Shown here piece after piece: positions 20,706 through 35,093 of a stretch of DNA of 47,421 bases. The notes under the pieces are model-generated. The model did not search any database, had not been told where the DNA came from, and saw nothing but the letters and a program-made list of their open reading frames with translations. Source of the stretch: Terriglobia bacterium (GTDB lineage: Bacteria; Acidobacteriota; Terriglobia; JAIQFV01). The stretch spans positions 1-47,421 of the forward strand of contig JAIQFY010000041.1 in the NCBI GenBank assembly GCA_020072965.1, written 5' to 3'. Each line of letters begins with the position of its first letter. The first letter of the stretch is position 1. The position numbers were made by a program, and so were the translations under genes.

Positions 20706-21861
20706 GGGGTCGTATCTTTGCAATCTACAATTGGGATTGGGCGTGGCGGAAGATGTCGGCTAACTGTTTGTCTTTCTCCATCTTCTTTTCGAATCGACGG
20801 ATGGCGGCAGAGACGGTCACATAGTCCAACCCGCCCGCGAGAACGCCCAACTCCTTGAGCTTCAGCCCGACACACCGGAATGCCAGGGTCAACACCAGGT
20901 CGCGGCCCCAGTCCCCGTAACGGCGGGAAAAATCTGTCCACCGTTCCCCCTTCGTTCTCTCCACGACGCCGATCACGGCGGCGAAATCCGGCCGCCTTCG
21001 CAGCGCTGCGAGCGACGGTTGTTCCTTTTCGTTTCCGTGGAGATGTTGTTCGAGGTGCAGCCGGAACTGCTCGCTCCCGAGAAGCACGCGGGCCTGTAAC
21101 TGATCCCACGGGGTTTGTTGCAGTCCTTCCCGGGCCGCTTCTTCCACATAGCGTTGATAAGCCTGAGGGCGCTCTTCCTTTTCGCCTCCCATCCAGCTCA
21201 ATACCGTCTCGCAGTGCAGCCATTCTGGCGCCTTCTCCAGCCCGATATAGGCCCGATACGAACTCCAGGGATAGTCCCTTAAGCCAGCGATGCGCGCGTC
21301 CCACAGATTCAACCCCTCTTCTTGACCGACCCCGGCCCGGTTCCGTCGGCGGGTTAGCTTGTCCAAGGCAAAGGGTCGGATTCGGATGGGGTTGAGGTGG
21401 ACATAACGGCTCAGCTCCAGCCCCCACCGCTCCGGCTCCACGATAATCCCCTTGAACCGGCCTTCGAACAGATGGCCCGTGCGCCGATGACGGCGGTTGA
21501 ACCATCCACCATAGCCGCTGTTGAGCCATTGCATACCGGCGCTCAAGTTCGCCTCCGGCGTCTCCAGCACCAGATGGTAATGGTTATCCATCAGGGTATA
21601 GACATGCAGCAGGATACGGTAACGCTCACTCATTCGACCCAACATCCCAAGCAGATGTCGGCGGTCCTCGTCATCGAGGAAGATGATGCCTCGTTCATTG
21701 CCTCGCGCCGTGATGTGATACCATGCTCCTTCCCAGGCAATCCGCAGGGCTCTGGCCATAACCACTCCGTTACGGGGGAAAGGTGGATGGTGATCAATCG
21801 GGGGGGAATCGACGCTAATTATATCATGCCGCTGAAATGCAGAATGCAAAGATACGACCCC
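20706..21861 (-). mobile_element. RAYT element 1 bounded by 17-bp inverted repeats
   Basis: GGGGTCGTATCTTTGCA at 20706-20722 is repeated exactly in inverted orientation at 21845-21861; over 25 bases the arms differ at only two positions. The single gene inside is a REP-associated transposase on the minus strand. Further copies of the 17-mer lie at 24937-24953 and 26497-26513, so this is the repeat family the transposase probably mobilises. Confidence 0.75.
20725..21759 (-). CDS. REP-associated tyrosine transposase (RAYT 1)
   Basis: The 344-residue single-strand transposase belongs to the Y1/HUH group (TnpA_REP). From the ATG at 21759 the N-terminus is MARALRIAWEGAWYHITARG. The HUH pair lies in MDNHYHLVLE (His 60 and 62), and the nucleophile Tyr is probably in NSGYGGWFNRRH, followed by GHLFEGRFKG. 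The C-terminal 100 residues contain a Chromosomal_DnaA_C-like region ending VSAAIRRFEKKMEKDKQL. Such enzymes nick REP hairpins; this one lies inside inverted copies of GGGGTCGTATCTTTGCA. A longer frame to 21867 would translate the repeat itself. It looks intact. Confidence 0.92.
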   Translation of the reverse strand: MARALRIAWEGAWYHITARGNERGIIFLDDEDRRHLLGMLGRMSERYRILLHVYTLMDNHYHLVLETPEANLSAGMQWLNSGYGGWFNRRHRRTGHLFEGRFKGIIVEPERWGLELSRYVHLNPIRIRPFALDKLTRRRNRAGVGQEEGLNLWDARIAGLRDYPWSSYRAYIGLEKAPEWLHCETVLSWMGGEKEERPQAYQRYVEEAAREGLQQTPWDQLQARVLLGSEQFRLHLEQHLHGNEKEQPSLAALRRRPDFAAVIGVVERTKGERWTDFSRRYGDWGRDLVLTLAFRCVGLKLKELGVLAGGLDYVTVSAAIRRFEKKMEKDKQLADIFRHAQSQL

Positions 21862-23593: not shown

Positions 23594-24548
23594 TGGGGTC
23601 GGACCAAGGCAACTGATTGAAATGGTTGTCGATGATCGAAAAAAAGGGTAATATTTAGGCCTTAGAGCCTGTTTTTTGCCCCCGAAATCACCCCCTTGGG
23701 AACATGGATCCGCGGAGAAACCTGCCATGGCGAGAGCCCATCGGCATTATCTGCCGGGACAGATCTGGCATCTGACCCAGCGCTGTCACGAGCGTCAGTT
23801 TCTGTTCCAGTTCCCCCGCGACCGGCAAGCTTGGAGGGGATGGCTGTATGAGGCCCGCAAGCGCTTGGGGTTGTGCGTTCTGGATTACATGGTCACTTCC
23901 AACCATGTCCATTTGTTAGTGGATGACCGGGAAGGTGGGGAGGTCATTCCGGCCTCGATGCAACTGGTGGCCGGACGGGTTGGGCAGGAGTACAATCGGC
24001 GGAAGAAAAGGCGTGGCGCCTTTTGGGAAGACCGCTACCATGCCACGGCGGTCGAAAGCGGGAAGCATTTTCGGGAGTGCCTGGCCTATATTGATCTCAA
24101 TATGGTGCGGGCTGGGGTGGTGGCCCATCCGGAACAATGGCCCGAGTGTGGGTACGTGGAAATCCAACATCCCAAGGCGCGGTACGGGATCATCGATTAC
24201 GAACGATTGATGGAACTGATGGGCGTCCGCCGCCTGGACCAGTTGCAGCAAGCCTGTCGGGAGCAGATCGAAGAAGCCATTCAGCGGAAACAGTTGGAAC
24301 GGCAGAGTCAATGGAGCGAGAGCTTGGTGGTGGGCAGCGCGGCCTATGTGGAAGCCGTTCGGAGGCAGTTGGGAGCGCGAGCCAGAGGACGGGACGTGAT
24401 GCCGGCCGAGGCGGGTTGCCAGTTGCGCGAGGAGGAGGCGGCTTACGGGACCAATTTGGAGGGCGAAAAAGCCCGTTTAAGCCTCAAAAACACCCGGTTA
24501 TGGAACTTATTCTCTTATGTTAAAGCACGTTAGCTTGGTCCGACCCCA
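23594..24548 (+). mobile_element. RAYT element 2 bounded by 15-bp inverted repeats
   Basis: TGGGGTCGGACCAAG (23594-23608) is repeated exactly in inverted orientation as CTTGGTCCGACCCCA (24534-24548). Between them is one transposase gene on the plus strand, whose stop codon lies just before the right arm. The repeat shares the GGGGTCG core with that of element 1 but differs afterwards, so the two are distinct families. Confidence 0.75.
23727..24533 (+). CDS. REP-associated tyrosine transposase (RAYT 2)
   Basis: The 268 residues start at the ATG at 23727, where MARAHRHYLPGQIWHLTQRC is the usual family start. The HUH motif is SNHVHLLVDD (His 60 and 62), the likely catalytic Tyr is in VGQEYNRRKKRRG, and FWEDRYHAT and YIDLNMVRAGVV follow, as in Y1 transposases. 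It lacks the long DnaA-like C-terminal domain of RAYT 1 and is clearly a different subfamily. It appears intact. Its stop codon abuts the right inverted repeat at 24534. Confidence 0.92.
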   Translation: MARAHRHYLPGQIWHLTQRCHERQFLFQFPRDRQAWRGWLYEARKRLGLCVLDYMVTSNHVHLLVDDREGGEVIPASMQLVAGRVGQEYNRRKKRRGAFWEDRYHATAVESGKHFRECLAYIDLNMVRAGVVAHPEQWPECGYVEIQHPKARYGIIDYERLMELMGVRRLDQLQQACREQIEEAIQRKQLERQSQWSESLVVGSAAYVEAVRRQLGARARGRDVMPAEAGCQLREEEAAYGTNLEGEKARLSLKNTRLWNLFSYVKAR

Positions 24549-32599: not shown

Positions 32600-32842
32600 T
32601 CAGTTGGCGACAGGCTGCTGGCGGTGTTTTTGGATCAGGAATTCCATTTGATCCTTCATCTGGAGCTTCAGTTTCTTGAGATTCACTTCCTCCAGCTTTT
32701 CTTCTTCGGTGAGGTAAGACTTGTGAGTCAGTTTTTCCAGTGCCTCGGAATAGCGAGAGTGTTTTTGAGCCAGTCGGCGAAAATCCTCGCTATCCCGCAT
32801 CAATCGTTCTTTGATGACATCCGTGGCATTGGCCTCAGCCAT
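32600..32842 (-). CDS. YdcH/DUF465-like small helical protein
   Basis: The 80 residues start at the ATG at 32842 behind a strong AGGAGG site; the frame to 32899 has none. It is all helical and charged: MRDSEDFRRLAQKHSRYSEALEKL, broken by THKSYLTEEEKLEEVNLKKLK, then KDQMEFLIQKH. This is the DUF465 pattern of short coiled-coil proteins with no established function. It is followed by a terminator and so is its own transcript. Confidence 0.85.
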   Translation of the reverse strand: MAEANATDVIKERLMRDSEDFRRLAQKHSRYSEALEKLTHKSYLTEEEKLEEVNLKKLKLQMKDQMEFLIQKHRQQPVAN

Positions 32843-32899: not shown

Positions 32900-33118
32900 A
32901 GATTTTTGACCGGAGGCAACCGAATTTGGAGGGGTGGGGGGGATAGGGATGAGTCAGAAATCTCATCCATCGAGTATGGCAGGCGCGAGGTGAACGCCGC
33001 TTCAAAGAAGATCTATCGACAGTGGGGTCAAGCCAAAGTCGGAGCACGATCATTATGGCTATATCCTCGGGAGTAAAAACGAAACATATTCGACACCTTC
33101 TACTACTGAGGATGAGAG
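32900..33118. other. Gene-free stretch left of the palindromic element
   Basis: No gene is supported. The only structure seen is GGGGTCAA (33024-33031), inverted as TTGACCCC at 33223-33230 inside the neighbouring element. At 8 bp this could be chance. Confidence 0.4.
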
Positions 33119-33388
33119 AATATAGTGACGGGAAAGATTCCGAATCGCGGAATTACTGGGCCTCGCGGCTCTGCCGCTCATTATTGTGGAAAGGCTCGGC
33201 CTTTCCAGCTGACCCAAAGCTATTGACCCCTCTTGAGCCGCTAAAGCCCGCCGCCATTGGCGGCGGGCTTTAGCGATGCAAGGAAAAAAGAAAAAGAAGG
33301 CTCGCCACGGTAAGCCACAGGCTTACCGCAATAATGAGCGGCAGAGCCGCACAGCGTGCCCGAACTCCTCCAAGAGTGTCACTATATT
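33119..33388. repeat. 270-bp non-coding element made of nested inverted repeats
   Basis: Outer arms AATATAGTGAC (33119-33129) and GTCACTATATT (33378-33388) match exactly. Inside are a perfect 21-bp pair (33165-33185 with 33330-33350), an 8-bp hairpin GGAAAGGC-TCG-GCCTTTCC (33188-33206), and a 17-bp hairpin CGCTAAAGCCCGCCGCC with its complement (33239-33275). A further 8-bp hairpin, GGTAAGCC-ACA-GGCTTACC, lies at 33309-33327. No gene is present. It could be a MITE, a composite of REP-like units or a structured RNA. Confidence 0.85.
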
Positions 33389-33441
33389 TGATCATCATCA
33401 ATAGTGTTTGGGACCCGTAACGCTGCCCGGTCAGCCCCCGG

Positions 33442-34557
33442 TCACTTCTTCATTTTTATCTCTTGAAGCAGATGGGACAGATCGCCAGACATCACAGGAG
33501 AGTCCTCCCCTCCTGAGATCCAATACCGGCGGATCCAAACGGATCGGGGCTGCGAGCCACCCGTGATCGGTGTTACTGAGAGCACCTTATAATCCGCCCC
33601 GTCTAAATTGAACTGCACCTGGCCCCAGTAGCTCCGTCCTTCGATTGCTCCCTCAAAGGGGTGGAGTGCAAGAACAAACAATCCTTCCTTGGGAGCATAA
33701 AAGGCGACTGCGGGATCGTTTCCGGAAGCACTCATTGCTGATCCAGCCGCCAGCGTGGGAATGAGCTCTTCTTCTTTGACAAGGACAAATCCCCGAAGTG
33801 CGACTTCATTCTCTTTTAAAAACAGGGGGTTCTCCGTGAAACTCACAATGGGCCTCTCTTCCGAGATTCTGCCAGTTAGTTTCAGGTCGCCAAAGCCATT
33901 GACGGGGATTCGGAGGGTTTCTGGTGGTTTGTACCAAAACTCACGTTCCGGTGCCTTTTGGATGGCTGACTTCCTACCTATATCGTCAAGCCACCCATTA
34001 ACAGAGTATGCCCGGAGCCCCATGAAAACAGCATCTTTGCGAATCTCATGTGTGTACAAGACGCAGCCATTCTCAGTCTTGTTCTTGCCATCTGGATCTG
34101 ATGTGCGATCGGTAGCCAAGCTTGCACCGCCGAGTCTTCCTGAGCCCGGTCCTTCCAACGCATGAACCGACCAATGGGCATCCCCGGAATCTTCATCGCC
34201 GACCTCATACTCGAACCATGGCCCTCTGCTCTGTGCCCTTACCAGTTGCAAGCCCACAGCCAGCCCGATTATCACCATAACGCTCAGCACAACCGCAAAG
34301 CGCGGAACTGAAACGCCCCTCGTCAGTGCATAAAGCCACTGTCCACGGATTCGCGGCGGCGATGGCAGTGGGATGCGGTCTTCTACTTCGCGGCCTTCCG
34401 CGCTGGCGAGCAGACGCAACTCCGCGGCGATCTCAGCATAATCCCGCAGCCGATGGGTGCACGCCGGACACCCCATAATGTGTTGTGCCGCTTCGGGGGG
34501 AACACTTTCCCCGTCATGTAACATGGAAACAAAAAGTCCAGCTTGTTCGCAGTCCAT
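33442..34557 (-). CDS. Membrane-anchored anti-sigma factor-like protein
   Basis: The 371 residues start at MDCEQAG (34557) behind GGGAGG. The N-terminus is a zinc-binding anti-sigma domain with HIMGCPACTHRL (H-x3-C-x2-C, about residues 27-38). A TM segment follows (VVLSVMVIIGLAVGLQLV, about 89-106) and then a periplasmic part of about 250 residues with no known fold. It lies 14 bases after the ECF sigma gene. The pattern is that of a transmembrane regulator holding the sigma factor until an envelope signal arrives. Confidence 0.85.
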   Translation of the reverse strand: MDCEQAGLFVSMLHDGESVPPEAAQHIMGCPACTHRLRDYAEIAAELRLLASAEGREVEDRIPLPSPPRIRGQWLYALTRGVSVPRFAVVLSVMVIIGLAVGLQLVRAQSRGPWFEYEVGDEDSGDAHWSVHALEGPGSGRLGGASLATDRTSDPDGKNKTENGCVLYTHEIRKDAVFMGLRAYSVNGWLDDIGRKSAIQKAPEREFWYKPPETLRIPVNGFGDLKLTGRISEERPIVSFTENPLFLKENEVALRGFVLVKEEELIPTLAAGSAMSASGNDPAVAFYAPKEGLFVLALHPFEGAIEGRSYWGQVQFNLDGADYKVLSVTPITGGSQPRSVWIRRYWISGGEDSPVMSGDLSHLLQEIKMKK

Positions 34558-34571
34558 ACATCCTCCCGTGA

Positions 34572-35093
34572 TCATGGGCGGCGCCCATGCCACTTACACC
34601 GCAGATCCTCGCGCGCCACAAACAGGCGTGACTTCACGGTGCCCATGGGAATATCCAAGATATGAGAGAGTTCTAAGTACGAATATCCCTCGACTTCACG
34701 GAGCCAGAGCAAACCACGCAGATCAGGATCCATCTTTCCCAATGCTTGTTCAAGAATCAAGCCGGTCTCAACTCTGTCTTCTACGGGTTCGCCACCACGC
34801 GGGAGCTCCCGCGAAGCGTGCTGTCGCAACCACTCAACTCCGCGATGGCGAGCGATCCCAAACAGATAGCCTCTCAAGGTCCCGCGCCCCGGATTAAAGC
34901 CGTTCGGTTTTTTCCACAGGTAGAGGAAGACTTCCTGGGCGACATCCTCGGCGGCACTCGCATCCCCTAGGTAATGGCGCAGAAAGCCGAACAGCCGTGT
35001 CTTGTGGGTCCGATAGAGGTTCTGGAACACCTCCACATCACTTTTCCGCAATCCCTCCGAGATCTTCAGGTCATTGGGATCGGACTCCATCAA
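34572..35093 (-). CDS. ECF-type RNA polymerase sigma factor
   Basis: The 173 residues have region 2 (FQNLYRTHKTRLFGFLRHYLG, then AAEDVAQEVFLYLWKKP, about 23-65) and region 4 (MDPDLRGLLWLREVEGYSYLELS with the helix-turn-helix GTVKSRLFVARE, about 120-165). There is no region 3 or 1. It should bind core polymerase and direct transcription of an envelope-stress regulon. The next gene is its probable anti-sigma partner. Confidence 0.93.
   Translation of the reverse strand: MMESDPNDLKISEGLRKSDVEVFQNLYRTHKTRLFGFLRHYLGDASAAEDVAQEVFLYLWKKPNGFNPGRGTLRGYLFGIARHRGVEWLRQHASRELPRGGEPVEDRVETGLILEQALGKMDPDLRGLLWLREVEGYSYLELSHILDIPMGTVKSRLFVAREDLRCKWHGRRP

Follow-up and report, generated by a model that had tools for sequence, protein, structure and literature searches.

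What kind of element packs several palindromes inside one another within some 300 bp of non-coding DNA, and which enzyme or enzymes would move it? The locus lies in a Terriglobia bacterium (GCA_020072965.1, here also G000), on contig JAIQFY010000041.1, of which positions 1-47,421 were analysed as one stretch, hereafter the window. A preliminary description had listed five inverted repeats at 33119-33388 and suggested a composite mobile element, a target for a RAYT-type enzyme, or a structured RNA. All five repeats were present at that place. The outer pair is a perfect 11-bp match as described (33119-33129 / 33378-33388) and forms the core of a longer imperfect pair (33102-33129 / 33378-33405, 82%). 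The inner pair is also perfect, but it is 22 bp long (33165-33186 / 33329-33350) and not 21; likewise, the 17-bp stem and the 3-base loops of all three hairpins were recovered, but the two small stems measure 9 bp and not 8. Each inner arm additionally opens with a 5-bp hairpin of its own, GCGGC-TCT-GCCGC, which was absent from that account, so that the unit at each inner end comprises the 21-nt hairpin B and, separated from it by a spacer of 9 nt, hairpin A (GCGGC-n3-GCCGC). Both flanking frames are on the minus strand: a DUF465 gene at 32603-32842 (Pfam PF04325, 26 bits against a cutoff of 25) and a frame at 33442-34593 that had no Pfam match up to E 0.01. Taken as a whole, 33104-33403 looks like two nested mobile layers, a REPIN-like inner element inside a TA-bounded outer MITE (Table 1).

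Table 1. Layout of the nested element and the evidence for its parts; positions are those of the window.
Feature	Position	Strand	Evidence
Left terminal inverted repeat of outer TA-bounded MITE, TACTGAGGATGAGAGAATATAGTGAC	33104..33129	+	42 such ends in genome
Left subterminal part of outer MITE	33130..33164	+	common to other composite copies
Inner REPIN-like element, inverted doublet of two-hairpin units round a central hairpin	33165..33350	.	out-of-sample model R1 finds both ends
Hairpin A, left (GCGGC-TCT-GCCGC)	33165..33177	+	inverted-repeat search, covariation, model R1
Spacer/tag TCATTATTG, 5' of hairpin B	33178..33186	+	
Hairpin B, left (TGGAAAGGC-TCG-GCCTTTCCA)	33187..33207	+	covariation, model R1
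Central hairpin, 17-bp stem, 3-nt loop	33239..33275	.	larger inserts here in other copies
Hairpin B', right (CGGTAAGCC-ACA-GGCTTACCG), compensated variant of hairpin B	33308..33328	-	covariation, model R1
Right spacer/tag (CAATAATGA)	33329..33337	-	
Hairpin A', right	33338..33350	-	covariation, model R1
Right subterminal part of outer MITE	33351..33377	-	common to other composite copies
Right terminal inverted repeat of outer MITE, TATTGATGATGATCAAATATAGTGAC on the minus strand	33378..33403	-	same end pattern

The preliminary description had taken a single occurrence in the genome, and a lack of compensatory changes in relatives, as grounds for doubt. When the genome was searched, the family proved to be dispersed: 48 matches to a 301-bp query fell at 26 places of the 5.92-Mb assembly (a count that includes the window itself and reverse matches of the arms, joined per copy), and 11 matches came from the only same-genus genome searched. 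The 22-mer of the inner arm, with up to 3 mismatches, occurred at 28 sites in the genome, compared with 1 for a reversed control pattern. These matches split into two modules, an outer one defined by the terminal repeats and an inner one corresponding to 33165-33350, and each was found by itself. Inner-type copies with no recognised outer end in their flanks were seen on contigs C7, C89 and C100, with two more beside a RAYT gene on C20; outer-type elements lacking the inner module also exist (for example, L033 and L123). In a tree of 14 inner elements, with element ends cut by eye, the four standalone own-genome copies included grouped apart with a support of 0.992, the outer ends being uncertain in three of the others, and a G001 copy with no recognised outer end sat among the composites. 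The tree is consistent with, and does not prove, one capture followed by spread as a composite.

Some copies were more elaborate than the one in the window. In the own genome, L014, L015, L016, L017 and L021 are nested three deep: their central hairpin contains a block some 275-280 bp long that has inverted ends like GCGCATACGCGTCAACCTAA and palindromes of its own; a related block sits upstream of a Y1_Tnp gene whose open frame has 354 aa (L063). At L029 772-1086, the inner element that lies upstream of the RAYT gene has its hairpin B split near the loop by a small inverted-repeat element, GAGACTGTGTCAAAAC ... GTTTTGACACAGTCTC. In the copies L009, L018, L024 and L021, small palindromes (TCCCGC-AAA-GCGGGA or TTCCGCCGTGGCGGA, for instance) take the place of the A-B spacer, as though short palindromes were exchanged at this position.

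MITEs derived from IS630 are short, non-coding elements with TA-bounded inverted ends. The outer layer of our element ends in 26-bp imperfect repeats with TA at both outer edges, and a degenerate pattern of this end, with up to 3 mismatches, matched 42 sites in the own genome (20 forward, 22 reverse) and none when reversed as a control. Of these ends, 37 begin with TA, which the pattern itself asks for, and 22 form 11 inverted pairs. Composite copies stop at such TA-type ends, with unrelated flanks beyond, and the idea of a composite mobile element was borne out in this form, an inner element within a TA-bounded MITE. A joined-flank search at eight of 11 sites found one without the element: at the C40 composite, both flanks are retained in the sister species (G001:C11), where the aligned blocks lie 84 bp apart, compared with 391 bp in G000, a difference of 307 bp that agrees within 3 bp with the 310-bp element. 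At the junction in G001 the adjacent 12 bases align, the next 70-80 or so on the left have diverged, and the TA itself is lost. At the other sites, C1 was a shared insertion, C68 a shared, half-deleted element, C36 held 822 bp of other sequence, C70 gave a single-flank match, C33 gave repeats only, and no match was found for C38 and C85. The window's own site lacks the element in the sister genome, with an unclean junction and 40 bp versus 488 bp between the matched flanks.

Outer-only copies (L028, L031) were considered as pre-insertion sites, and this was dropped after L031, the only one of the two compared, was set against the sister genome. L031 is probably an internal deletion because the sister genome keeps the left half of the composite at that site. 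Between L250 (G001:C18) and L031 (G000:C1), the composite insertion appears to be common to both species, with different internal deletions.

Genes for DDE_3 transposases, which we take to stand for IS630, are carried by seven of the eight other genomes with outer ends of this type. At one of the 20 DDE_3 loci examined (L218, G044:C82, in another family of the same class), TA-bounded ends of the outer type lie on both sides, 1098 bp apart, and the DDE_3 reading frame is split over overlapping ORFs. Of the 26 bases in each of these ends, 22 and 20 are identical to those of a G008 MITE end but only 15-18 to those of the two ends in the window, so the link between the window and this transposase is one of family resemblance. 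A search of the own genome for DDE_3 gave no match. The TA-type ends, the unrelated flanks and the relative's DDE_3 element with similar ends, as well as the separate grouping of the own-genome standalone inner copies, would also suit a plain IS630-type MITE that a DDE transposase alone moves, with internal palindromes that are incidental and no role for a RAYT.

One own-genome gene, G000:C20:63061-63615 (185 aa), is a RAYT by NCBIfam NF047646 (REP_Tyr_transpos, 80.5 bits, cutoff 80) and lies between two inner-type elements (L029 772-1086 and 1858-2043). It is not listed among the 36 matches of Pfam Y1_Tnp in the own genome (20.4 against a cutoff of 23), and its profile had no match among solved structures at E <= 0.01; we regard it as the putative cognate RAYT on the strength of the NCBIfam match and its context. 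Close relatives occurred in three of 60 other genomes, G027 (56%), G003 (51%) and G011 (58%, a partial match that spans 66 residues and has no visible A-B unit next to it), and at 17 close loci from named MAGs, each carrying an acidobacterial label, at 50-59% identity. Two of these 17 are the same contigs as G027 and G003, and L190 and L191 come from one isolate. In the locus set, L186 duplicates L148 and L176 duplicates L147; the distant L193 was left out, and L149, a partial match, was left out of the flank-unit count and the covariation alignment. Ten of the 17 distinct relatives were scanned with NF047646 and all matched, eight of them above the cutoff. The HUH His pair and the Tyr were each present in 17 of 18 sequences, that is, in all those covering that position, and stops occurred in the matched stretch of three relatives (L185, L190, L192). 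Mobility of the RAYT gene itself was considered and found to be unsupported: loci from related genomes share flanks on at least one side (L183/L190/L192, L188/L189, L178/L180, L179/L181 and L181/L184).

The palindromes beside these genes are those of the window's inner ends. In G003 an inner-type match starts 46 bp after the RAYT match. Read from the outside towards the gene, a RAYT flank presents hairpin A, then a spacer of about 8-10 nt with GTG or GAG as its last bases; hairpin B (CGGAAAGGC-n3-GCCTTTCCG, or a compensated variant) follows and, after some 20 nt more, hairpin C (GAGGC-n3-GCCTC or a variant of it). Of these, A and B are present in the window's ends; hairpin C was not found there in that form, and a different central hairpin is present instead. 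A sequence-blind detector placed the A-B unit within 400 nt on both sides of the gene in 13 of 18 RAYT loci and on at least one side in 17, the one-sided loci being L147, L177, L178 and L191 (contig end). At the own RAYT (L029) the detector found no A-B unit within 400 nt; this gene is bracketed by whole doublets, not single units. Outward-facing units numbered 31 at the 18 loci, compared with 0.05 per mononucleotide-shuffled set, and in either orientation there were 41 units in 13,563 bp near RAYT genes versus 7 in 57,332 bp far from them. The RAYT-type tag GTAG or GGAG was not found at the hairpin foot, where TGTG, TGAG or CGTG stood beside RAYT genes and ATTG in the window. A scan of 30 of the 36 own-genome Y1_Tnp loci showed inner units beside none of them. 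The window itself includes two Y1_Tnp matches, at 21400-21726 (minus) and 23766-24095 (plus), with open frames of 396 and 293 aa; neither was among the matches of the cognate RAYT search.

To compare the stems across genomes we aligned 29 ends, comprising the two from the window, one short own-genome end and 26 RAYT-flank ends of other genomes, all picked by a left-arm pattern that fixes the left arms and leaves their partners free. Among 534 cells, 97.2% were paired; 10 of the 19 stem pairs had changed on both sides (35 cells), and hairpin B was paired in every row covering it. Relatedness alone can inflate covariation scores, and the shuffles used here keep sequence kinship. For four of five covariation measures, the covariation score included, none of 500 shuffles reached the observed value. 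On the fifth measure, further pair types, 11 of 500 shuffles attained that value and one slid structure equalled it; all six slid structures were lower on cells paired, changed pairs and covariation score. Compensatory changes in relatives, which the preliminary description had asked after, were found in the stems themselves, and the idea of a RAYT target is supported: the same units bracket acidobacterial RAYT genes and whole copies flank the own RAYT, the action of the enzyme being presumed.

A covariance model, R1, was trained exclusively on the 26 RAYT-flank ends from other genomes; its best two hits in the 47-kb window fell on the inner element, one at each end, with E values of 1.9e-7 and 1e-5. 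Scanning 61 genomes with strict filters and at most 102 candidates scored in each, which makes all counts lower bounds, R1 found A-B units in at least nine. The four genomes whose RAYT match exceeded 60 bits (a threshold set with the list already in view) had at least 26 (own genome), at least 44 (G003, which gave two of the R1 training ends), at least 7 (G027) and at least 3 units (G011). Among the other 57 genomes none were found in 52, and there were at least 32 units in G020, 4 in G052, 3 in G001, 2 in G013 and 1 in G002. G020, an assembly of about 310 contigs in which no close RAYT was found, is the clear exception to the co-occurrence of RAYT and unit. Units frequently formed inverted doublets (plus then minus, less than 700 bp between them, judged by eye), with 6 pairs in G000 (12 of 26 units), 15 in G003 (30 of 44, one pair being the RAYT flanks themselves) and at least 10 in G020 (20 of 32).

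Folding of both strands, also proposed at the outset, gave very stable and nearly equal structures for 33100-33407: -165.9 kcal/mol on the plus strand and -167.7 on the minus strand (z = -12.90 and -12.86), with none of 100 shuffles as stable on either strand. The palindromes are not a product of chance. Such stability, together with stems kept through compensatory change, is what a structured non-coding RNA or a transcript-level element such as an attenuator or mRNA stabiliser would display. Yet the fold hardly differs between strands, Rfam returned six matches up to E 1 and none at the gathering score, the element is found in unrelated contexts, and the sister genome does without it at the window's site. 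The structured-RNA suggestion is left without support, and we consider an RNA-level function exceedingly improbable.

The RAYT loci also bear on the plain IS630-type MITE. Against it, the inner unit occurs by itself, with no recognisable outer ends, in several copies and on both sides of the RAYT gene, and it brackets RAYT genes in other genomes with compensatory changes; we regard this explanation as unlikely. A second alternative discards the DDE transposase and makes the whole a single RAYT-type element whose outer ends are RAYT ends as well, a TIRtron as Di Nocera et al. (2013) use the term. The text of PMC3733652 does describe RAYT-like genes flanked by terminal inverted repeats, an acidobacterial group among them, and outer-type ends enclose GTAG-tagged palindromes in other genomes. 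However, the gene found between such ends is a DDE_3 gene and not a RAYT, the TA at each edge is in keeping with IS630, some outer-type elements lack strong hairpins, and no outer end was found in the DNA surrounding the same 30 of 36 own-genome Y1_Tnp loci (up to 5 mismatches) or 20 RAYT-subfamily loci (up to 4 mismatches). We hold a single RAYT-type element to be very improbable.

Instead, we think it quite probable that an IS630-type MITE took up a REPIN-like element belonging to an acidobacterial RAYT system and that the composite then spread as one. The composite and RAYT suggestions of the preliminary description belong together. By analogy with TnpA_REP (as described in the text of PMC8266576) and REPINs (likewise in PMC3116915), we infer that each unit, folded as a single strand, is what the RAYT works on, and that the inner doublet serves the RAYT as a non-autonomous element. 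The RAYT, as an HUH/Y1 single-strand nuclease, would recognise the folded hairpin A, a spacer ending in TTG, GTG or GAG, and hairpin B at each end, and would mobilise the inner doublet as single-stranded DNA, as has been proposed for REPINs. The outer IS630-type MITE would have captured this inner element, in what we presume to be the direction of capture, and an IS630-type DDE transposase provided in trans would act on the 26-bp ends and insert the whole composite at TA. Both enzymatic steps are putative, as is any current activity or mobility.

In this reading the element would work like a REPIN inside an IS630 MITE and is not a canonical GTAG REP. With the REPINs and REP-BIMEs of RAYT systems (TnpA_REP; Pseudomonas fluorescens, E. 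coli) it shares dispersed, non-coding, inverted palindrome doublets, a RAYT gene bracketed by the same palindromes, and compensatory stem changes. Unlike them, it joins two hairpins into one compound unit at each end of the element (three beside RAYT genes), and it has a length of about 186 nt, a tag that is ATTG here and TGTG, TGAG or CGTG elsewhere but not GTAG, and a TA-bounded MITE as its carrier. With IS630-derived MITEs such as Correia and RUP (named in the text of PMC2817692) it has in common that it is short and non-coding with TA-bounded inverted ends, and the relative's DDE_3 element with similar ends would be a candidate autonomous partner. It differs from them in its cargo, a REPIN-like element that belongs to another class of transposase.

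Among the classes in print, TnpA_Y1 subclass 2.6 and class 3 and the TIRtrons come nearest, and part of the unit may already be drawn there. The text of PMC6006769 describes, for subclass 2.6 and class 3, RAYT-like genes flanked by "atypical secondary structures" with copies elsewhere in the genome, and includes Acidobacteria in class 3. The key motifs printed there are NH[LIV]H, WQ and YIH[QN]NP for subclass 2.6, and NHVH, YV..EQ and a CnGA foot for class 3; those of our RAYTs are mostly DHxH, W[ED]HH and YIHxNP, and it is by these printed motifs that we set them apart. TIRtrons or TIRYTs, in the text of PMC3733652, likewise comprise RAYT-like genes in inverted repeats, some self-complementary, with an acidobacterial group named. 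According to the text of PMC6006769, 20 of 26 TIRYTs fall in subclass 2.1, with a median of 238 aa, whereas the RAYT here has 185 aa, a distinction drawn from subclass and protein length. In the running text of the papers surveyed there was no description of the A-B unit or of REP elements inside IS630 MITEs.

This arrangement may extend beyond the window's family. In three other genomes, G013 (L197-L204), G055 (L205-L212) and G002 (L045), GTAG-tagged palindromes lie between outer ends that belong to this family. A detector for such hairpins found them between the ends in five of eight loci (L197, L199, L203, L205, L208) and none in L206, L213 and L215. Read by eye, the GTAG hairpins of G013 and G055 form inverted doublets, and the one in G002 carries its GTAG tag on a 9-bp palindrome whose 7-nt loop exceeds the limit of this detector. 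The one G055 RAYT locus examined (L153) had no GTAG hairpin. We suggest, tentatively and with more doubt than confidence, that TA-bounded IS630-type MITEs in this class repeatedly carry REP elements of unrelated RAYT systems, the cases being the compound-hairpin type described here, the GTAG doublets of G013 and G055, and the GTAG palindrome of G002.

If this is true, there would be a stable partnership between a DDE enzyme working on double-stranded DNA and an HUH enzyme working on single strands, with one small DNA movable by either. How RAYTs spread REP repeats is described as still unresolved in the text of PMC8266576, which studied RAYT groups 2 and 3. The RAYT subfamily and the hairpins paired with it at 13 of 18 acidobacterial loci make up a defined set of enzyme and putative substrate outside those groups, and the REP-in-MITE arrangement suggests a route by which REP elements may reach new sites without their own enzyme.
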